DNA of 64,000 bases, taken from positions 3,162,001-3,226,000 of the forward strand of contig NZ_CP121682.1 in assembly GCF_029760955.1 (NCBI RefSeq). The letters are read 5' to 3'. The position numbers and the translations under genes are program-made. This document shows positions 21,267 to 35,845 of the stretch, piece after piece. The DNA is from Streptomyces cathayae. GTDB lineage: Bacteria; Actinomycetota; Actinomycetes; Streptomycetales; Streptomycetaceae. Numbering within the stretch: the first letter of the stretch is position 1; each line of letters opens with the position of its first letter. A model generated the notes under the pieces. That model ran no database searches. It was not told the origin of the DNA and saw only the letters and a list, made by a program, of their open reading frames with translations.

Positions 21267-22430
21267 TCACAGCGGATCCGGTATCGGCAGCGGCCGCTTC
21301 TCGATGGCCGCGGCCATCACCTCCGGGAACAGGTCGGGCGTGCAGGCGAACGCCGGCGCGCCCAGCGCGGCGAGGGCCGCCGCGTGCTCCCGGTCGTAGG
21401 CGGGCGCCCCCTCGTCGGACAGCGCCAGCAGCGTCACGAACTGCACCCCCGACGCCTTCATCGCCGCGACCCGCTTGAGCATCTCGTCGCGTATGCCCCC
21501 TTCGTAGAGGTCACTGATCAGTACGACCACCGTCTCCGCGGGCCGGGTGATCTGCGCCTGGCAGTACGCCAGCGCCCGGTTGATGTCCGTGCCCCCGCCG
21601 AGCCGGGTCCCGAAGATCACGTCGACGGGGTCGTCGAGTCGGTCCGTGAGGTCGGCCACCGCCGTGTCGAACACGACGAGCCGCGTGTCGACGGACCGCA
21701 TGGACGCGAGCACCGCCCCGAACACCGAGGCGTAGACGACGGACGCCGCCATCGACCCGGACTGGTCGACGCAGAGGACGACCTCCTTCTTCACGGACGG
21801 CGCGGCCCGCCCGTGGCCGATGAGCCGCTCGGGCACGACCGTCCGGTGCTCGGGGAGGTAGTGCTTGAGGTTGGCCGCGATGGTGCGGTTCCAGTCGATG
21901 TCGTGGTGGCGGGGCCGGCTGACCCGGGCGCTGCGGTCGAGGGCCCCGGTGAGGGTGGCCCGGGTGCGGGTGGCGAGCCGCTTCTCCAACTCGTCGACGA
22001 CCTTGCGGACGACGGCCCGCGCCGTCTCCTTCGTCGTGTCGGGCATCGCCTTGCCGAGCGACATCAGCGTGCCCACGAGATGGACGTCGGCCTCGACCGC
22101 CTCCAGCATCTCCGGTTCCAGCAGGAGGGTGGCGAGCCCCAGCCGGTCGATGGCGTCGCGCTGCATGACCTGGACGACGGCGGAGGGGAAGTAGGTCCGG
22201 ATGTCCCCGAGCCAGCGCGCCACCGACGGCGCGGACGCCCCCAGTCCCGCCGAGCGCTCCCGCCCCGTCCGCGGCTTGTCCCTCTTGCCGTAGAGCGCGG
22301 TGAGCGCTCCGTCCAGGGCGGCGTCCTGGCCGGACAGCGCGCATCCGGTGCCGTCCGCCGCGTCCCCGCCGAGCACCAGCCGCCACCGCCGCAGCCGTTC
22401 CCGCGCCGGGTCCGTCACCGCTGCCGCCAT
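21267..22430 (-). CDS. vWA-domain protein (CoxE/MoxR-partner type)
   Basis: A 387-residue cytosolic protein. The C-terminal half is a von Willebrand A domain with a complete MIDAS: VLCVDQSGSM (DxSxS), the threonine in RLGGGTDINRAL, and the aspartate in VLISDLYEGG. The N-terminal half is helical and rich in Arg and Leu. vWA proteins with an intact MIDAS next to MoxR-type ATPases usually bind the client that the ATPase remodels. The ATG at 22430 is chosen because GGAGGGGG precedes it; the longer frame is a shadow. It lies 61 bases after the DUF5682 gene and is the last gene of the three-gene operon. Confidence 0.88.
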   Translation of the reverse strand: MAAAVTDPARERLRRWRLVLGGDAADGTGCALSGQDAALDGALTALYGKRDKPRTGRERSAGLGASAPSVARWLGDIRTYFPSAVVQVMQRDAIDRLGLATLLLEPEMLEAVEADVHLVGTLMSLGKAMPDTTKETARAVVRKVVDELEKRLATRTRATLTGALDRSARVSRPRHHDIDWNRTIAANLKHYLPEHRTVVPERLIGHGRAAPSVKKEVVLCVDQSGSMAASVVYASVFGAVLASMRSVDTRLVVFDTAVADLTDRLDDPVDVIFGTRLGGGTDINRALAYCQAQITRPAETVVVLISDLYEGGIRDEMLKRVAAMKASGVQFVTLLALSDEGAPAYDREHAAALAALGAPAFACTPDLFPEVMAAAIEKRPLPIPDPL

Positions 22431-22491
22431 ACGTCCCCCTCCATCCCTTGCTCCTTCGCCCTTCGCCCCCTCGTCCGGTGGCCGGGGGCCG

Positions 22492-24912
22492 TCATCGTGC
22501 CGCTCCCACCAGGCCGGCGCCCGTGTCCTCGCCGCCCTCCTCCTTCTCGCCGCCCTCCCCGTCCCCGGCCGCCTGCTCCCCTCCCGGTCCCAGCCCCAGC
22601 AGCAGCCGCACCACAGGCAGGACCGCGTCCGCCCGGCCGGTGTCCGGGTTTGCCGCGAAGCCGGGTGTCCCACGACCGGCGCCCGCCGCGCCGCTCCGCG
22701 CCCCCGGTCCGCGCCGGACCAGCTCGCCGAGCGTGCGCCGCACCCCGGGCTCGTACGCCGAGAAGGTCCGCCGCAGCAGCGGGAGCACGTCCGTGAACGC
22801 CTCCGCGGGCACCCCCGTCAGCCACGCGTCGACCAGTGCGAGGAGCCGCTCGTCGTGGACGAGGAGCAGCCCGCCCCCCGAGCCGCCGACGAACCCCTCG
22901 ATCCACGCCGCCGCGTCCGCCGGGGACGTACCCGGTGACGACAGCACCAGCCCCATCTGCCGGGCCGCCTCGTCCTGCGCCAGCTCCCCGTCGTCCAGCA
23001 GCAGGCGGGCCGCCCGCCCCCGTACGACACCGGGCACGGTGTCCCGCGTCGCCAGCTTCCGCAGTGCCGACGCCCAGCGGGCGCGCAGGTTCCCGTGGCC
23101 CGGCGCGGGAACGTCGCCGAGGAGCCCCACCGCCCCGTGCACGGCGTCGAGATGGCGCCGCATCTCCTCGGCGGCGTCCGCGCCCAGTCCGGCGCAGGCC
23201 GGGGGCAGGCCGACCAGGACCCGCTCCGCCAGCCCGGCGGCGACCTCGGCCAGGGCAGCGGTGCCGGTGCCGCGCACATCGCCGTAGCGCAGCGAGCGGA
23301 CCAGGGCGGGCAGGGCCTGGGCGAGACGGCCGACGTCCGTGTCGAGGGCCGCGCGGTCGGCGAGTACCCGCATCACCGTGGGCAGCGCGTCGGGCAGTCC
23401 GGCCAGGAGGCAGTGCTCGGCGAGCCCGGTGACGGCGGCGAGGTCCCGCGCCGCGACGGCGTCCGCCTCGGCCCTGGCGGTCGCGGCGGCGAGTACGGTC
23501 GTCCCCCATATACCGGCCTCGGCGACCCGCACGGACAACTCCGGCTCCCAGCACAGCCGCCAGGTCTCCCGGAACGTGCCCGTACTCCCGTACGAGGCCG
23601 CCGGCTCCCCCCAGCCGATGCCGAGCAACCGCAGCCGGTGCAGCAGCCTGCTGCGCTGCCCGTCGGTCTCCTTGCGCAGGTCGAGTTCCAGTTCCCGCTC
23701 CGCGGCCTCGGGTTTCAGCCGCAGCCGGCGCTGGGTCCGGGTGAGGTCCAACTGCAGGGGCACCGCGGGAGCCGTCGCCGGCACCTCGCCGAGCACGTCA
23801 CCGACGATCAGCCGGTCGTGCACCAGCGCCAGCGGCACGTCGGAGCCCTCGCACATCACCGCCCGCACCGCGTCCGTCGTCTCGCCCAGTCCGGGCAGGG
23901 GCCGGCCGCGCAGCGCGGCGAGCGTCTCCGCCAGCCGTACCGACTCGATGACGTGGGCGGGGGACACGGTCCGGTCCTCGGCGCGCAGCAGCCCCGCCAC
24001 CTTCGTCATCCACCGCTCGACCGGCCGGTCCTCCGCGCCGAACAGATGCCCGTACCAGCCGGGCGAGTCGATGCCCGCGCCGTAGCCGCTGAACCGGGAC
24101 AGCCTGCGGTTCGTCCACGGCACCCACGTCAGGTCCGTCCTGACCTTCGGCAGACCTCTGAGCAGGGCCCGGTCGGCGGCGACGGTGGCCTTCCGCCGCA
24201 ACGCGGGCACGTGCCAGGCCCCGCAGACGACGGCCACACCGCTCCCGTACTCCCGCCGCGCCGCCCGGATCTGGAGCCGCATGTACGCCTCGCGCACGAG
24301 ATCCCGGTCGTGTCCCCCGCTGCCGTACACCTCCCGCAGCGCCGTCATGGCCTCCTCCAGCGCGGTGAACGGGGCGAGCGCGTCGCCCTCCTCCCCCACT
24401 CCGCGGTGCTCGACGACGTCCTCCCACCACCGCTCGGCGTCGTCGTACCCGGCGGCCTCGGCCAGCGCCCGGAGCGGATCGATCCGCACGTCGCCCTGCT
24501 GCCCGGTGTCCGGCTTCCCCCCGTCGTCCGGCTGTTCTCCGTCGTGCGCCTCGTCCCTCCCCCGGGCCAGGGTGTGGGTGGCCGGCAGGTCGATGAAGCG
24601 GGCCGGGGCGCCGTGCTCCAGCGCCCAGTGGATCGCGACCCACTCCGGGGAGAACGCGGCGAGCGGCCAGAACGCCGAGCGGCCGGGTTCGTCCACCGCA
24701 TGGGCGAGCAGGGCGACCGGCGGACGCATGCCGTCGTCCGCGGCGAGCGGAATCAGCTCGTTCGCCTCGGGCGGGCCCTCGATCAGGACGACTCCCGGAC
24801 GGGCCTCCTCCAGGGCCGCCCGCACCGCCCGCGCCGACCCCGGTCCGTGGTGCCGTACTCCGAGCAGCAGCGGCCCCGCTCCCCGGCCGCCGGGCTGCTC
24901 CGCCTCGCTCAC
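22492..24912 (-). CDS. DUF5682 protein with TraB/TIKI-like motifs
   Basis: An 806-residue protein of a family without a known function. The N-terminus reads LLLGVRHHGPGSARAV, then VVLIEGPPEANELIP, and further on VAVVCGAWHVPALRRK. This order (G-x-H near the start, a strand ending in E-G, and a later G-x-W-H-x-x-x-L) is the pattern of the TraB/PrgY and TIKI group of predicted metal-dependent hydrolases. The remaining 500 residues are Ala/Leu/Arg-rich helices. The GTG at 24912 overlaps the stop of the AAA gene (GTGA), so the two are translationally coupled. Residues that could bind metal are the paired histidines at the N-terminus, the glutamate and the later histidine. The TIKI relationship is my inference from motifs. 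Confidence 0.8.
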   Translation of the reverse strand: MSEAEQPGGRGAGPLLLGVRHHGPGSARAVRAALEEARPGVVLIEGPPEANELIPLAADDGMRPPVALLAHAVDEPGRSAFWPLAAFSPEWVAIHWALEHGAPARFIDLPATHTLARGRDEAHDGEQPDDGGKPDTGQQGDVRIDPLRALAEAAGYDDAERWWEDVVEHRGVGEEGDALAPFTALEEAMTALREVYGSGGHDRDLVREAYMRLQIRAARREYGSGVAVVCGAWHVPALRRKATVAADRALLRGLPKVRTDLTWVPWTNRRLSRFSGYGAGIDSPGWYGHLFGAEDRPVERWMTKVAGLLRAEDRTVSPAHVIESVRLAETLAALRGRPLPGLGETTDAVRAVMCEGSDVPLALVHDRLIVGDVLGEVPATAPAVPLQLDLTRTQRRLRLKPEAAERELELDLRKETDGQRSRLLHRLRLLGIGWGEPAASYGSTGTFRETWRLCWEPELSVRVAEAGIWGTTVLAAATARAEADAVAARDLAAVTGLAEHCLLAGLPDALPTVMRVLADRAALDTDVGRLAQALPALVRSLRYGDVRGTGTAALAEVAAGLAERVLVGLPPACAGLGADAAEEMRRHLDAVHGAVGLLGDVPAPGHGNLRARWASALRKLATRDTVPGVVRGRAARLLLDDGELAQDEAARQMGLVLSSPGTSPADAAAWIEGFVGGSGGGLLLVHDERLLALVDAWLTGVPAEAFTDVLPLLRRTFSAYEPGVRRTLGELVRRGPGARSGAAGAGRGTPGFAANPDTGRADAVLPVVRLLLGLGPGGEQAAGDGEGGEKEEGGEDTGAGLVGAAR

Positions 24913-26078
24913 GCGCCCGCCTCCCTGCAGGCCCGGTAGAAGTCCTTCCAGCCGTCGCGCTCGCGGACGACGGTCTCCAGGTACTCCTGCCAGATGACGC
25001 GGTCCGCCGCCGGGTCGCGGACGACCGCGCCGCGCATGCCCGCCGCGACGTCCCCGGCCCGCAGCACGCCGTCCCCGAAGTGGGCCGCCAGCGCCAGCCC
25101 GCCCATGACCACGGAGATCGCCTCGGCGGTCGACAGGGTGCCGCTGGGCGACTTCAGCTTCGTCCGGCCGTCGGTGGTGACCCCGTCGCGCAGCTCGCGG
25201 AAGACGGTGACGACACGGCGGATCTCGTCGATGCCGTCCGGCACGGCCGGCAGGTCGAGGGAGCGGCCGATCTGGTCCACCCGGCGCGAGACGATGTCCA
25301 CCTCCGCCTCGGGGGTCTCGGGCAGCGGCAGCACCACGGTGTTGAACCGGCGGCGCAGGGCGCTGGACAGGTCGTTGACCCCCCGGTCGCGGTCGTTGGC
25401 GGTGGCGATCAGGTTGAAGCCGCGGACCGCCTGTACCTCCTGGCCCAGTTCCGGTATCGGCAGCGTCTTCTCCGACAGGATCGTGATCAGTGTGTCCTGC
25501 ACATCGGCCGGGATCCGGGTCAGCTCCTCGACGCGGGCCGTCGCCCCCTCCGCCATCGCACGCATGACGGGACTGGGCACGAGGGCGTCGCGGCTGGGGC
25601 CGTGGGCGAGCAGCCGGGCGTAGTTCCAGCCGTAGCGGATGGCTTCCTCGGGGGTGCCGGCGGTGCCCTGGACCAGCAGGGTGGAGTCACCGCTGACCGC
25701 CGCGGCCAGGTGCTCGGACACCCAGGTCTTCGCGGTGCCCGGCACGCCGAGCAGCAGCAGGGCGCGGTCGGTGGCCAGGGTGGTGACGGCGACCTCGACG
25801 ATGCGGCGCGGGCCGACGTACTTCGGTGTGATCACGGTGCCGTCCGGCAGTGTGCCGCCGAGCAGGTAGGTGGCGACGGCCCACGGGGACAGCTTCCAGC
25901 GGGCCGGCCGCGGGCGGTCGTCCTGCGCGGCCAGCGCGGTGAGTTCGGCGGCGAAGGCGTCCTCGGCGTGCGCCCGCAGTACCTCGGCCGCGGGCACGGA
26001 GCCGTTCCGGCCCGGGTCGACGGATGCCGGGGCGACGGGCGTCGGTTCGACAGATGCCGGTTCGACAGACACGGACAT
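24909..26078 (-). CDS. MoxR-type AAA ATPase
   Basis: A 389-residue AAA+ ATPase. After a 30-residue Pro/Val-rich N-terminus and a helical segment, the core shows Walker A GVPGTAKTWVSEHLA, the strand with TLLVQGTAGTPEEAI, sensor-1 NLIATANDRDRGVNDLSSAL, and the arginine-finger region RRRFNTVVLPLP. The C-terminal lid follows. MoxR ATPases act as chaperones that activate or load cofactors into target complexes, usually with a vWA partner, which is encoded two genes downstream. The ATG at 26078 is selected because GGAGGGGG lies eight bases upstream; an upstream in-frame start lacks one. The first gene of a three-gene operon, it is transcribed from the divergent damage-type promoter region. Confidence 0.9.
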   Translation of the reverse strand: MSVSVEPASVEPTPVAPASVDPGRNGSVPAAEVLRAHAEDAFAAELTALAAQDDRPRPARWKLSPWAVATYLLGGTLPDGTVITPKYVGPRRIVEVAVTTLATDRALLLLGVPGTAKTWVSEHLAAAVSGDSTLLVQGTAGTPEEAIRYGWNYARLLAHGPSRDALVPSPVMRAMAEGATARVEELTRIPADVQDTLITILSEKTLPIPELGQEVQAVRGFNLIATANDRDRGVNDLSSALRRRFNTVVLPLPETPEAEVDIVSRRVDQIGRSLDLPAVPDGIDEIRRVVTVFRELRDGVTTDGRTKLKSPSGTLSTAEAISVVMGGLALAAHFGDGVLRAGDVAAGMRGAVVRDPAADRVIWQEYLETVVRERDGWKDFYRACREAGA

Positions 26079-26121
26079 GGCGGAGTCCCCCTCCAGCTCG
26101 GCCGGTTCGGATCTGGCACCC

Positions 26122-26203
26122 ACCGTGCACCACCCCACTGACAATCGCTGTGACCTGGGAAAACGAAGATGCGAGGCCGATTGTCAGTGGGGGGACCTAC
26201 CGT
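26122..26203. promoter_or_regulatory. divergent RecA-NDp (PafBC-type) promoter region with 15-bp inverted repeat
   Basis: On the plus strand TTGTCAGTG (26181-26189), eight bases and TACCGT (26198-26203) match the RecA-NDp consensus TTGTCRGTG-N8-TANNNT in every position. The expected transcription start is at or next to the ATG at 26211. On the minus strand TTGTCAGTG (26144-26136), eight bases and CACGGT (26127-26122) match the same pattern with one change in the -10 (C for T). The two -35 elements sit in a perfect 15-bp inverted repeat (26133-26147 and 26178-26192). In mycobacteria this promoter class is activated by PafBC after DNA damage. Confidence 0.85.
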
Positions 26204-26210
26204 CGACGAC

Positions 26211-27584
26211 ATGACTCAGCAGGGGGTGCGCTGGACCGCGGACCAGGTGCTGGCCTTGGCGCCTGACCTCGCGTCGCGCACGGCGGGAAGCAAGCTCGGC
26301 GCGGCCGGTCCGTGGTCCGAGGCCGGCAGTTCGGGCGAGGGGGCGGTGTGGGGGCTGTGCGAGGGCAGCGGCGGCAAGCCGTACCGGACGGTGGTCGACA
26401 TCGCGGACCCCTCCGGGCCCGCGTACCGGTGCAGTTGCCCGAGTCGCAAGTTCCCGTGCAAGCACGCCCTGGGTCTGCTGCTGCTCTGGGCGGGCGACGA
26501 GGGGGCGGTGCCGCGGGCGGAGGCGCCGGAGTGGGCCGGGCAGTGGATCACGGGCAGGCGCGGGGCCGTGGGACGGAACGGGGCCGCGGAACGGAACGGG
26601 GTCGCGGGCCCGTCGGGCTCCCCGTCCGGACCCGCCGATCCGGAGGCGGCCCGGCGCAGGGCGGAGCGCCGGGCCGAGCGGGTCACCGCGGGTGCGTCGG
26701 AGCTGGAGCAGCGGCTGACGGATCTGCTCCGCGGCGGACTGGCCACGGCGGAGCGGTCCGGGTACGGCCTGTGGGAGGAGACGGCGGCCCGCATGGTCGA
26801 CGCGCAGGCGCAGGGACTGGCCACCAGGGTCCGGGAGTTGGGGGCGCTTCCGGGCACGGGTCCGGGGTGGCCGGTGCGGCTGCTGGAGGAGTGCGCGCTG
26901 CTCCACCTCCTCGCTCAGGGCTGGCTGCGCCGTGATCGGCTGCCGGAGGGGCTGGCCGCCACCGTCCGCTCCCGCACCGGTCTGCCGGCCCCGGCGGACG
27001 GCCCGCCGGTGCGGGACCGCTGGCTGGTCCTCGCCCAGTACGACTCGGCGGACGCGCGCCTGACGACCCGCCGGATCTGGTTGTACGGCACGGACTCGCG
27101 GCGCACCGCGCTGCTCCTCTCCTACGGAGCCGCGGGGCGCGCTCCGGAACTGACGCTGCCGGTGGGGCTGATCCTGGACGCGGAGCTGTCCGCCCACCCG
27201 GGTACCGGGCAGGCACGGGCGGCGCTCGGTGAGCGGTTCGCGGCGCCCGCCCCCACGGCCGAGCGGCCCCCCGGGACGACGACGACCCGGGCCGCCGCCC
27301 GGTACGGCGACGCACTGCGCGACGACCCCTGGCTGGACTCCGTTCCGGTGACCCTGGACCGGGTGGTACCGGCCCCGGACGGCGGCTCCTGGCAGCTCGC
27401 GGACGCCGACGAGGACGCCGCCCTGCCGCTCACCGCGGCCGCGCGTTCCCGCCCCGGCCTGTGGCGTCTCGTCGCCCTCTCGGGCGGTGCGCCGGTCACG
27501 GTCTTCGGCGAGTGCGGCCACCAGGGGTTCACCCCGCTGGCGGCCTGGCCGGAGGGGCCCGGCGAGGTGGTGCCGCTGTGCTGA
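26211..27584 (+). CDS. SWIM zinc-finger protein
   Basis: A 457-residue protein with a SWIM motif near residues 70-90 (YRCSCPSRKFPCKHALGLLL, CxC-x6-CxH), a zinc finger reported to bind DNA or protein. The rest is Ala/Arg-rich and helical, with a beta-rich C-terminus (VTVFGECGHQGFTPLAAW). The ATG at 26211 is fixed by the RecA-NDp promoter: the -10 ends at 26203, so the transcript would start at or within a base or two of the ATG and be leaderless, and no Shine-Dalgarno sequence is seen. It is the first gene of the plus-strand half of the module and is followed by the DUF5691 gene after 67 bases. Confidence 0.88.
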   Translation: MTQQGVRWTADQVLALAPDLASRTAGSKLGAAGPWSEAGSSGEGAVWGLCEGSGGKPYRTVVDIADPSGPAYRCSCPSRKFPCKHALGLLLLWAGDEGAVPRAEAPEWAGQWITGRRGAVGRNGAAERNGVAGPSGSPSGPADPEAARRRAERRAERVTAGASELEQRLTDLLRGGLATAERSGYGLWEETAARMVDAQAQGLATRVRELGALPGTGPGWPVRLLEECALLHLLAQGWLRRDRLPEGLAATVRSRTGLPAPADGPPVRDRWLVLAQYDSADARLTTRRIWLYGTDSRRTALLLSYGAAGRAPELTLPVGLILDAELSAHPGTGQARAALGERFAAPAPTAERPPGTTTTRAAARYGDALRDDPWLDSVPVTLDRVVPAPDGGSWQLADADEDAALPLTAAARSRPGLWRLVALSGGAPVTVFGECGHQGFTPLAAWPEGPGEVVPLC

Positions 27585-27651
27585 GCCGCCCGCACCTCAC
27601 CGGCCCCGCCCACCCCCGGCCGCTCCCGGCCGTCCGACGGGAAGGAAGCCC

Positions 27652-29376
27652 ATGAGCAGGACCTCCGTACCGGCCGCCTCCTCGGCCGCGTCGGTGCCGC
27701 ACTCTGCGGACCCGTCCCTTCCGGGCGCCTGGGAGGACCTCGTCACCACGGCGCTGCTGGGGACGGACCGGCGTACCCCGGCCGGCGCCGCGCCCGGCGC
27801 GGACGCCCCGAAGACCCTGCTGGACGCGGCGGCCGTGGCGACCGTGCGGCGCCGTGCCGGACTGCGTCCCGCCAGGGCGGCGGAGCGCCCGCGACCAGCG
27901 CCCCGGGACCCGCGCCCCGCGCTGCCGCCCGCCGCCGCCCGCCGGCTCGCGATGCTGCTCGCCGACCGCCCCGGCACCTCCGGCGGCGGCCGCCGGGGTA
28001 CGGCACCGGACCTGATGGAGCTGCTGCCCCAGTGGCTGGCGGCGGCGAACGCGCACGGCTTCGCGGCACCCGCCCCGGTGCTCCCCGCGCTGCTCGACGC
28101 CGCGCGGGGACGTACGGACCTGCGGCCGGCGGCCCTGCGGTTCGCGGGGCCGCGCGCGCTGTGGCTGGCCCGCCTCAACCCGGACTGGCGGTTCGCCCTG
28201 CGCTCGGCCCAGGGAAGGGGCATATCACTGCCGGGGACCGTGAACCCCGGGGACTCCGGGGGCCCCGAGGGTTCCGGGGGCTCCGACGCTCCCGAGAACG
28301 CGGAGTCGCCCCTGCGGCTCTGGCAGGAGGGCCTCTTCGCGGAACGGGTCGCCCTGCTCGCCGCCCTCCGTTCCCGCCGGCCCGCCGCCGCGCGTGAACT
28401 CCTCGCGACGACCTGGGCGACGGAGCGGGCCGAGGACCGGCTGATGTTCCTCGACTCGTTGCGCACCCGCCTCTCCCCGGACGACGAGCCGTTCCTGGAA
28501 CTGGCGCTCGCCGACCGCAGCCGCACCGTACGGGCGACGGCCGCCGAGCTGCTGTCGGCGCTGCCCGGTTCGGCCTTCGCGGAGCGTATGGCGGTCCGGG
28601 CCGGGGTGTGCGTGGCCGTGGACCACACCCGGGACACGCCCACCCTCACCGTCGAGGCGCCGCACGAGTGCGACGCGGACATGGAGCGCGACGGGGTGAC
28701 GGCCAAGGCTCCCGCGGGCCGGGGCGAACGGTCGTGGTGGCTGGGGCAGCTGGTGGAGGCGGCCTCCCTGGGCACCTGGTCGCGGCGGCTCGGCGGACGG
28801 TCGCCCCGGCAGATCGTGGCCCTCCCCGTGGCGGACGACTGGCGGAGCGAACTGCACGCGGCATGGTGCCGCGCGGCGGTGCGCCAGCGGGACGCGGAGT
28901 GGTCGCGGGCGCTGCTCGGCGAGCCCGCCGCGGTGGAGGCGGGCGGCCCGGGAGCGGTGTCCCTGGCCGAACGGGCCAAGCTGCTCGGCGCGCTGGACGC
29001 GACCGAACGAGCCGAGTGGGTGGCGGGGTTCATCGGGACACACGGACTGCCGGACGCGTTCCAGCTGCTCGGCGTGTGCGCGGTGCCGTGGGCACCACCG
29101 CTCGGCCGGGCCGTGGTGGACGCGCTCGACATCGCCCGGGACGCGGGGAGTTATCCCTGGAGTTTCAGCGGTGTCATGGGTCTGGCCGAGCGCTGCCTCG
29201 ACCCCTCGGAGGCAGGCCACCTCGATGCGCTCCTGGCCGTACCGGACGAGCCGGAGGACGCCTCGCCGGGCTCCGGTGGCTACTGGTCGGAGGCGTTCCA
29301 GCGACTGGTCACCACACTGCGGTTGCGCGCCGCGATGCTGGCGGAGCTGACCCCGGCACCACCCGGCCGCTCCTGA
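27652..29376 (+). CDS. DUF5691 protein, HEAT-like helical
   Basis: A 574-residue protein of unknown function. It is rich in Ala, Leu, Arg and Trp and reads as repeated amphipathic helices, for example WEDLVTTALLGTDRRTPAG at the start, LLATTWATERAEDRLMFLDS, and LELALADRSRTVRATAAELL, the last very close to a HEAT-type repeat unit. No catalytic motif or membrane helix was seen. The ATG at 27652 has GGGAAGGAAG before it. Its placement after the SWIM gene and opposite the MoxR/vWA operon suggests a scaffold or adaptor role in one system; that is inference. A strong terminator follows at 29423. Confidence 0.82.
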   Translation: MSRTSVPAASSAASVPHSADPSLPGAWEDLVTTALLGTDRRTPAGAAPGADAPKTLLDAAAVATVRRRAGLRPARAAERPRPAPRDPRPALPPAAARRLAMLLADRPGTSGGGRRGTAPDLMELLPQWLAAANAHGFAAPAPVLPALLDAARGRTDLRPAALRFAGPRALWLARLNPDWRFALRSAQGRGISLPGTVNPGDSGGPEGSGGSDAPENAESPLRLWQEGLFAERVALLAALRSRRPAAARELLATTWATERAEDRLMFLDSLRTRLSPDDEPFLELALADRSRTVRATAAELLSALPGSAFAERMAVRAGVCVAVDHTRDTPTLTVEAPHECDADMERDGVTAKAPAGRGERSWWLGQLVEAASLGTWSRRLGGRSPRQIVALPVADDWRSELHAAWCRAAVRQRDAEWSRALLGEPAAVEAGGPGAVSLAERAKLLGALDATERAEWVAGFIGTHGLPDAFQLLGVCAVPWAPPLGRAVVDALDIARDAGSYPWSFSGVMGLAERCLDPSEAGHLDALLAVPDEPEDASPGSGGYWSEAFQRLVTTLRLRAAMLAELTPAPPGRS

Positions 29377-31316: not shown

Positions 31317-31620
31317 CGGTGGCGTGACGAAAAGCGGGCGACACGCCCGAAACGCATGCTCCTCGACGACTGCGGCGGCAGCACTGTCCCACCCGAACAA
31401 CAACCGCTCCGCCCGGCCGACTTGGCGACGTGAACGCACACACGTCTCGAACGAATTTCGAACACAAAGCCAAGACCGTGAATACCCGCCACCAAAACGC
31501 AACCGAATGCCCGTTTCCTGCGCGCGCGAAACCTGCGGAAGATTGTCGCGCCCGCGTACCGCCGGGTACAGTCGCCGCACTGCTCTGCCAGCCCCTGTTG
31601 TCGAGGCGAAAGAGAAGTTG
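31317..31620. other. 304-base intergenic region with hairpin and promoter
   Basis: Starts with a 12-bp direct repeat that duplicates the lipase stop region (TGACGGTGGCG twice, 31303-31325). It then has the hairpin CGGGCG-ACA-CGCCCG (31335-31349) and the promoter of the M23 gene. No gene was recognised. Confidence 0.5.
31543..31572 (+). promoter_or_regulatory. candidate promoter of the M23 peptidase gene
   Basis: TTGTCG (31543-31548), 18 bases, TACAGT (31567-31572) is close to the vegetative sigma consensus. The transcript would begin near 31579, leaving a 40-base leader with a GAAAGAGAAG ribosome-binding site. Confidence 0.5.
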
Positions 31621-33228
31621 GTGAACGACCGTCACCCGTCGGGGACAATGGCCCCGCCCCCGGCTTCCGACGCCGTCTCGGCGCACTACGCGCCCTACGG
31701 CACCCAGGAAGCCCCGTACGGCGACTTCACCCCGTACAGCGGCTACGACACCAATGGTTTCGACCCCACGGGCTCCGGAACCAGCGCCCCGGCCACCGCC
31801 GCCTTCGCCACCGACCCCCTCTTCGGGGACCTCTCGGGCAGCGGTCACGACCCGGCTGCGTACGCCACCGGGGACTGGTCCGCGGGCGGCCACGGCACCG
31901 CGCACCACGACGCGTACCCGGCTCAGCAGCAGGCCGCCGCCTATGACACGGGCGGCTACGACGCGACCGCCTGGACCACCGGGCAGCAGCAGCTGCCGAC
32001 GGTCCCGCCGCAGGCCACGGCACCCGACGCGAGCGGTCAGTGGGACGCCGGCGCCTGGCTCCAGCCCGACCAGGCCCAGAGCATCCCCGATCCGACCCAG
32101 CAGTGGCACTGGGGCACCCAGACCTTCGACACCGGTGCCTATGACGCCACGCAGTGGAACTCCGACGGCGGCGGCACGGCCACCCAGGTCTCCGAGTCCT
32201 ACGAGGCCCCCTCCCACGAACACCAGGCCGTGCCGTTCGACCAGCAGGCCACCGCCACATTCGAGCGGCACCCGGACCTGCGGTCCTCCACCTCCACCCC
32301 CTCCCCTGCCTTCGATTCCCAGGAATCCGAACAGCATCTCCATGAGGTCCACTACGAGGGCCCCTACGAGTCCGCGCACGACACGCCGGACGACGCCGGT
32401 GAGCCGCCCGCGGTGGCCCCGCTGCTCGACGAGCAGGAGGAGCCGACCCCGCTGCCCGCGCCGCGCGCGGCGTCACGCGGCGGGTCCCGTTCCCGCCGCC
32501 GCACGCCCGCCAAGCGCTCCGCGCTGCTGACGGTGGCCGTGCCCTCGGTGTGTGTGATGGGTGTCGCCGGTATCGCGGCGGCCTCGGTCGGCGATCTGGC
32601 CGAGGACGGCGGCAGCCCGGAGACCAGGACGACCGCGGCGGACCCGCCGCCGGTACAGCCCGCCACCGTCAACAACGAACTCAACACCCAGCTCGAGAGC
32701 CTCTCCGCCGGGGCCAACGACTTCGCCGACCGGGCCAGTCGCACCCAGGAACGCATCGACCTGGAGGTCCAGCAGGAGGCCGACCGCAGGGCGGCGGCGG
32801 AGGAGGCGGCCCGCAAGGAGCGGCTGCGCCCGAAGTTCGCGCTTCCCGTCGCGCAGCACGGCCTCAGCGCCTACTACGGCCAGTCCGGCATCAACTGGAT
32901 GTCCGTGCACAGCGGGATCGACTTCCCCGTCTCGTACGGCGCGCCGGTGATGGCCGCCACCGACGGCACAGTCCGCACCCAGTACAACAGCGCCTACGGC
33001 AACATGATGATCGTGACCGCGATGGACGGCACGGAGACGTGGTACTGCCACCTCTCCAGCTACCAGCTCCCCTCCGGTACGGCGGTGAAGGCCGGCCAGC
33101 CGATCGCGTTCTCCGGGAACTCGGGCAACTCCACCGGCCCGCACCTCCACTTCGAGGTCCGCCCGGGCGGCGGCTCGGCGATCGACCCGCTGGCGTGGTT
33201 CCGCAGCCACGGCCTCGACCCGACGTAG
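31621..33228 (+). CDS. M23 family metallopeptidase with long disordered N-terminus
   Basis: A 535-residue membrane-anchored peptidoglycan endopeptidase. Residues 1-260 are Gln/Tyr/Asp/Pro-rich and disordered, with repeated YGTQ/YDATQW-like patches. A basic stretch and a membrane helix follow near 297-322 (TVAVPSVCVMGVAGIAAAS). A short coiled coil (QTQER ... EEAARKE) precedes the M23 domain. That domain has the zinc-binding HSGIDF near 430 and the HLHFEVRPGG motif near 507, both intact, so it should be active. The GTG at 31621 is preferred over the ORF extension because GAAAGAGAAG lies just upstream. It is convergent with pcrA and shares its terminator. Confidence 0.9.
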   Translation: MNDRHPSGTMAPPPASDAVSAHYAPYGTQEAPYGDFTPYSGYDTNGFDPTGSGTSAPATAAFATDPLFGDLSGSGHDPAAYATGDWSAGGHGTAHHDAYPAQQQAAAYDTGGYDATAWTTGQQQLPTVPPQATAPDASGQWDAGAWLQPDQAQSIPDPTQQWHWGTQTFDTGAYDATQWNSDGGGTATQVSESYEAPSHEHQAVPFDQQATATFERHPDLRSSTSTPSPAFDSQESEQHLHEVHYEGPYESAHDTPDDAGEPPAVAPLLDEQEEPTPLPAPRAASRGGSRSRRRTPAKRSALLTVAVPSVCVMGVAGIAAASVGDLAEDGGSPETRTTAADPPPVQPATVNNELNTQLESLSAGANDFADRASRTQERIDLEVQQEADRRAAAEEAARKERLRPKFALPVAQHGLSAYYGQSGINWMSVHSGIDFPVSYGAPVMAATDGTVRTQYNSAYGNMMIVTAMDGTETWYCHLSSYQLPSGTAVKAGQPIAFSGNSGNSTGPHLHFEVRPGGGSAIDPLAWFRSHGLDPT

Positions 33229-35822: not shown

Positions 35823-35845
35823 AGTCTAGGCCGCCCCACCGACAA
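35823..35845 (-). promoter_or_regulatory. RecA-NDp (PafBC-type) promoter of pcrA
   Basis: On the minus strand TTGTCGGTG (35845-35837), eight bases, TAGACT (35828-35823) matches TTGTCRGTG-N8-TANNNT perfectly. The expected start lies about three bases before the ATG. It has the same promoter class as the divergent module at 26 kb, and a DNA-repair helicase is a fitting target. Confidence 0.85.

Follow-up and report, generated by a model that had tools for sequence, protein, structure and literature searches.

The window analysed here, a stretch of 64,000 nucleotides at positions 3,162,001-3,226,000 of contig 1 of the 7.6-Mb Streptomyces cathayae genome, harbours five adjacent genes arranged in two divergent operons. 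On the reverse strand are the genes of a CoxE-type vWA protein (21267-22430; 387 amino acids), DUF5682 (22492-24912; 806 amino acids) and a MoxR-type AAA+ ATPase (24909-26078; 389 amino acids), while the forward strand encodes a SWIM zinc-finger protein (26211-27584; 457 amino acids) and DUF5691 (27652-29376; 574 amino acids). All five Pfam matches are above cut-off (204 bits for VWA_CoxE, 991 for DUF5682, 129 for AAA_5, 27 for SWIM and 582 for DUF5691), and the Walker A motif of the ATPase (GVPGTAKT), the metal-ion-dependent adhesion site (MIDAS) of the vWA protein (DQSGS...GGGTD...ISD) and the SWIM finger (CSCPSRKFPCKH) are intact. The vWA domain spans residues 152-371 of 387, with no further Pfam domain C-terminal of it. 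The AAA and DUF5682 genes overlap by GTGA, the vWA-DUF5682 and SWIM-DUF5691 gaps are 61 and 67 bases, respectively, and 132 bases (26079-26210) separate the AAA and SWIM genes; the initial annotation, made from the letters of this DNA, had given the same families and exactly these spacings. A longer SWIM open reading frame (ORF) is possible from 26169, yet its start would fall upstream of the promoter motif described below.

The five genes are a conserved set and not chance neighbours. Among the best 80 of 565 related loci, which are nearly all from Streptomyces and thus close kin and not independent, 69 carry all five genes, with divergent order and strands identical in 69 of 69. The other 11 are short of one to three genes, 10 of them being cut by a contig end; one locus (L037) has room for a vWA gene, yet no vWA match. 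DUF5682 and DUF5691 were each found in 10 of 149 Actinomycetota genomes (one of the DUF5691 matches, in G049, being below cut-off), with 9 genomes common to both and the two genes a few kb apart; the lone genome with DUF5682 but no DUF5691 (G124) carries a module of the DUF4132 type described below, and a second copy in G107 was left out of the reading. As the scan for related loci retained actinomycete loci only and other phyla were taken from plasmid-collection records (16 of 37 matching records opened), the spread over taxa reflects this sampling and does not amount to a census. SWIM, DUF5691, AAA, DUF5682 and vWA genes are co-directional in records of Nonomuraea, Nocardia, Methylobacterium, Deinococcus, Rhizobium (two) and Methylosinus, and Hymenobacter has the same co-directional set with SWIM and DUF5691 within a single ORF; DUF5691 was not found in three loci (L129, L103 and L109). 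Co-occurrence and kept arrangement make a chance neighbourhood very unlikely, and the linkage on which the initial annotation had staked its module is thus borne out.

Two records in this sample deserve separate mention. The Methylosinus trichosporium vWA gene (L102, 9217-10310), which is unannotated, looks broken, its match being split into four segments. AAA, DUF5682 and vWA genes are also present in L109 (MT835988.1), a contig recorded as 'Bacteriophage sp.' and flagged unverified, the DNA of which is possibly bacterial and not from a phage.

The AAA, DUF5682 and vWA proteins of the window are homologous to Escherichia coli YehL (38% identity), YehM (28%) and YehP (37%), the genes of which are likewise adjacent in strain K-12 and are followed by the SWIM gene yehQ; the finger is present in both YehQ and the window SWIM protein, with BLASTP similarity nowhere beyond it. 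Upstream of yehL are yehK, yehI (DUF4132), the pseudogene yehH and yehF (WGR; PF05406). The E. coli set thus differs from that of the window in having DUF4132 and no DUF5691 match, and two layouts are found among the loci read: the DUF5691 type of the window, and a DUF4132 type, in which DUF5691 was not found, in E. coli, Iodobacter, Sinorhizobium, Agrobacterium, Proteus and one Streptomyces locus (L132), where the DUF4132 protein carries a WGR domain. DUF5691 has no detectable homology to DUF4132 (hhalign E 0.54). S. cathayae itself has a second module (G000:C1:7,373,086-7,376,124; L005, 9241-16165), in which the AAA gene is followed by a DUF5682-vWA fusion ORF of 1583 amino acids (DUF5682 at residues 316-1328, vWA at 1357-1578) and by an ORF of 591 amino acids, the SWIM-like match of which is weak (E 0.61). 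The initial annotation missed the E. coli operon and this fused copy, as well as the promoter motifs. Separately, one plasmid record from E. coli (L111; NZ_CP103756.1), 181 kb long and classed as conjugative, carries the chromosomal yehI-yehLMPQ-yehR-btsRS stretch.

In the divergent region, a perfect 15-bp inverted repeat read from the sequence (arms 26133-26147 and 26178-26192), both arms of which contain TTGTCAGTG, sets two promoter motifs back to back. With what we take to be the consensus letters of the RecA-NDp promoter, the forward-strand motif (TTGTCAGTG-N8-TACCGT; 26181-26203) faces SWIM-DUF5691 and ends 7 nucleotides before the SWIM ATG, as in the leaderless type, and the reverse-strand motif (TTGTCAGTG-N8-CACGGT; 26122-26144) faces AAA-DUF5682-vWA with CA instead of TA in its −10 half. 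The RecA-NDp form of actinobacterial damage genes is the target motif of PafBC (PMC6789036, PMC8223512); the window shares both motif and spacing, and the distance of 7 nucleotides from motif to start recurs at recA of S. cathayae. The motifs were counted in the window plus 77 of the 80 loci (L011, L022 and L064, in which AAA or SWIM is missing, were left out): the full form faces SWIM in 71 of 78 and the CA variant faces AAA in 77 of 78, while elsewhere in these loci, over 2.97 Mb of both strands together, the full form occurs once and the looser CA form 52 times. In the whole S. cathayae genome the full pattern has 13 sites and a reversed control none. Downstream of the 13 are recA, a radA-like gene, uvrA, uvrB, genes of a DEAD helicase and an SNF2 helicase (DUF3670), HAD, SUKH-4 and Cas5 genes, three ORFs with no Pfam match, and the window module. 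A gene with such a promoter, SCO6735 of S. coelicolor, is reported as UV-inducible (PMC5087735). Among five other Streptomyces modules read, the motif is upstream in three (L132, L134 and L107), 55 nucleotides before the WGR-DUF4132 gene in L132 and ~6 kb before the AAA gene in L107; the first genes of L107 and L134 are ambiguous (no Pfam match for two L107 ORFs, VWA_CoxE for L134). LexA boxes (alpha, gamma and Gram-positive forms) and the radiation/desiccation response motif (RDRM) were rejected as module promoters, none being present in 16 upstream regions apart from a single GAAC-N7-GAAC close to where the AAA gene of L107 starts. DNA-damage control of the module, which the initial annotation had proposed as 'damage-induced', has its support at the level of motifs, each of the two operons being preceded by one of RecA-NDp type.

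The same motif marks genes outside the module. In L120 (G000:C1:5,180,035-5,180,057) it stands 39 nucleotides upstream of a Cas5-type gene, so a CRISPR-Cas operon of Streptomyces is possibly under DNA-damage control, and ORFs of 291, 421 and 208 amino acids with no Pfam match (L112, L115 and L121) directly behind such motifs are candidate new damage-response genes. A second full RecA-NDp-like match in the window (35823-35845, reverse strand; TTGTCGGTG...TAGACT) is inside a region of long ORFs.

Hints of a damage response come from other phyla as well. In E. coli a sequence that resembles a LexA box, with 13 of the 20 consensus letters, stops 7 nucleotides short of yehF, which we take to be the gene also called molR. 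The latter is listed in the LexA regulon (PMC11039860, PMC4576408). In Deinococcus radiodurans, depletion of the damage-response repressor DdrO strongly upregulates the WGR gene DR2173 and the operon DRA0165-DRA0166, in which DRA0166 encodes DUF4132 (PMC8533742); the regulation is that of DUF4132/WGR kin, whatever their position relative to AAA/DUF5682 genes.

A number of points weigh against damage control of the module. The spacing of the pattern was fixed after the sequences had been viewed, the first spacing giving 0 of 78, although recA, uvrA and uvrB were then recovered by the genome-wide search; the 78 promoter loci are close kin, and the AAA-facing motif is without the TA of the −10. 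The motif is absent from the fused copies L005 (same genome) and L133; in eight Actinomycetota modules outside Streptomyces the match is weaker, four of them having only 9 of 11 positions (shuffle fraction 0.01-0.03), and nine upstream regions outside Actinomycetota have no convincing motif. In S. venezuelae, according to the published account of an initial motif search, the PafBC motif of Mycobacterium smegmatis was not found conserved (PMC9380542), and passages of three PafBC papers, as distinct from their regulon tables, do not mention the window module. In E. coli the LexA-like box precedes yehF and not yehL, and another 13-of-20 site is within the same 20 kb; the Deinococcus taeanensis module has no RDRM within 500 bases.

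The N-terminal domain of DUF5682 (~residues 10-250), which precedes a helical C-terminal part, looks like a distant TraB/GumN (TIKI-type) enzyme, a reading that is new here and is drawn from weak but concordant structure and profile matches. Its motifs GxRH, E, RExxM and GxxH are invariant in 88 of 88 sequences, and they present, in order, the two GxxH, the conserved E and the R-x-x-M-like helix of what we take to be the motif set of the TraB/GumN/TIKI superfamily, with a weak resemblance in the predicted N-terminal fold; YbaP and five plasmid TraB/GumN proteins served as comparison. Unlike TraB/PrgY/GumN proteins, DUF5682 has no Pfam TraB match, ~500 extra mostly helical residues and an invariant D108. 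Several results speak against kinship. Foldseek gave no E below 0.001, and template modelling (TM) scores were low, the viral TraB reaching a TM-score of 0.40 by target length at a root-mean-square deviation of 12.1; two unrelated designed helical proteins scored as high in Z (10.3 and 10.2), on the helical part of DUF5682. For six N-terminal pieces of DUF5682 neither PF01963 nor PF05139 matched at E 10, and hhalign gave DUF5682-TraB a probability of only 20% (E 0.0012), although between TraB and erythromycin esterases, too, it established no link (E 0.33). The erythromycin-esterase family itself reached only E 0.031 against DUF5682. By sequence, the PDB holds no DUF5682 relative (best E 0.063). 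With the whole model, the 50 PDB matches listed by Foldseek were mostly helical-repeat proteins (best E 0.013; at rank 46, 7w5z_E, a second Tetrahymena complex IV entry), a list filled by residues 460-721 according to VIA-align, which advises searching each domain by itself.

The nearest solved relatives of the window AAA protein are midasin and NorQ; the PDB holds no vWA relative by sequence. MoxR/vWA pairs remodel clients and can insert metals, as modelled for NorQD (PMC13036017). Like NorQ/NorD and CoxD/CoxE, the window combines a MoxR AAA+ ring with a MIDAS vWA partner; unlike them, it adds the conserved DUF5682, SWIM/DUF5691 and a damage-type promoter. Because DUF5682 and vWA are fused in one ORF beside the AAA gene in L005, the arrangement points to DUF5682 as client or partner of the MoxR/vWA pair. 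The structure predicted for DUF5691 is a HEAT/ARM-like solenoid (predicted local distance difference test 78), with many ARM/HEAT matches, none of them below E 0.001. Since DUF5691 is predicted to be HEAT/ARM-like and PARP2 recognises DNA breaks through its WGR domain (PMC13061835), the helper proteins would plausibly aim the DUF5682 enzyme at DNA.

Taken together, the best explanation, with a probability of roughly 0.62, is a MoxR/vWA chaperone module under DNA-damage control, of the same kind as YehLMP(Q) of E. coli; the five genes probably encode a machine, driven by ATP, for the activation of a hydrolase-like enzyme after DNA damage. Damage would activate PafBC, upon which the two back-to-back RecA-NDp promoters would fire and the five proteins be made along with RecA, UvrA and UvrB. 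The MoxR AAA+ ring and the vWA protein, as their families suggest, would form a remodelling pair with DUF5682 as its dedicated client, a putative, probably metal-dependent hydrolase by the fold and motifs of its N-terminal domain, which the pair would activate, perhaps by opening it for metal as NorQ/NorD do for nitric oxide reductase. SWIM and the HEAT-like DUF5691 would guide the enzyme to where it acts, either on DNA or on a protein bound there, a role for which the sister module would use the WGR-DUF4132 protein instead. The 'remodelling or hydrolase-activating machine' of the initial annotation is thus supported as an inference from MoxR/vWA homology, the DUF5682-vWA fusion and the TraB/TIKI-like motifs. 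A wider version is tentative and rather doubtful: a hitherto unrecognised cross-phylum damage-response machine, in which a MoxR/vWA motor switches on a TraB/TIKI hydrolase (DUF5682/YehM) at DNA lesions through interchangeable adaptors (SWIM plus DUF5691, or WGR-DUF4132), which came independently under the control of PafBC in actinomycetes, of LexA in E. coli (via molR/yehF) and of DdrO in Deinococcus (DUF4132/WGR kin).

It is unlikely that the damage promoter instead serves a conflict (anti-phage or suicide) system, in which the MoxR/vWA switch would release a harmful DUF5682 hydrolase. MoxR-vWA pairs are the core of proposed ternary conflict systems of MoxR, vWA and a constant third protein (Kaur et al. 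2020, PMC7159879) and are found in some CRISPR-linked loci (PMC10910872), in S. cathayae a Cas5 and a SUKH-4 gene likewise stand behind the promoter motif, and DUF5682 is in 36 plasmid-collection records, some of them chromosome-sized. In the window, however, the third protein is DUF5682 and variable effectors are lacking by Pfam, the vWA protein ending soon after its vWA domain. The Pfam scan placed VMAP, iSTAND, FtsH and beta-propeller nowhere above cut-off (which of these have a Pfam model being unchecked), and bpMoxR scores 23.5 bits on the AAA protein against a cut-off of 27. The arrangement, constant in all complete loci, is not diversified, and the motif is common to core repair genes. 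As no protein of the five matches a PADLOC model at E 0.001, a known anti-phage system was rejected, and the defence role that the initial annotation had allowed for finds no positive evidence.

Less probable still is maturation of a cofactor for a metal enzyme elsewhere in the cell, after the manner of CoxD/CoxE or NorQ/NorD, with damage control as a secondary matter of oxidative damage to metal centres. The CoxE type of the vWA protein, the kinship of the AAA protein to midasin and NorQ and the naming of kin genes molR for molybdate use (PMC8533742) fit it; against it, no metalloenzyme gene recurs in the annotated flanks of nine records viewed by eye, and moeA and moeB are reported as unchanged in the D. 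radiodurans DdrO-depletion study (PMC8533742). That unrelated neighbours happen to share a chance promoter motif is scarcely credible in view of motif statistics, co-occurrence and kept arrangement, including linkage across phyla, even though the fused copies L005 and L133 are without the motif.

Should the reading as a DNA-damage-controlled chaperone module hold, four uncharacterised E. coli genes and two DUF families would be tied to the DNA damage response, a client would be predicted for MoxR/vWA, and DUF5682 would gain a testable enzyme fold with H21, E45 and H234 as candidate catalytic residues. The motifs also add sequence evidence that the RecA-NDp promoter type is at work in Streptomyces, a question not settled by one published motif search. 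In the literature, no published function was found for this exact five-gene set, as the initial annotation had said without naming the yehLMP core, and no publication naming DUF5682 or DUF5691 turned up in a search to which supplementary tables, hence regulon lists that may already include these genes, were external. Downstream of the module, after an ORF of 630 amino acids with no Pfam match, the window encodes an M23 peptidase protein of 634 amino acids (31324-33228, forward strand).

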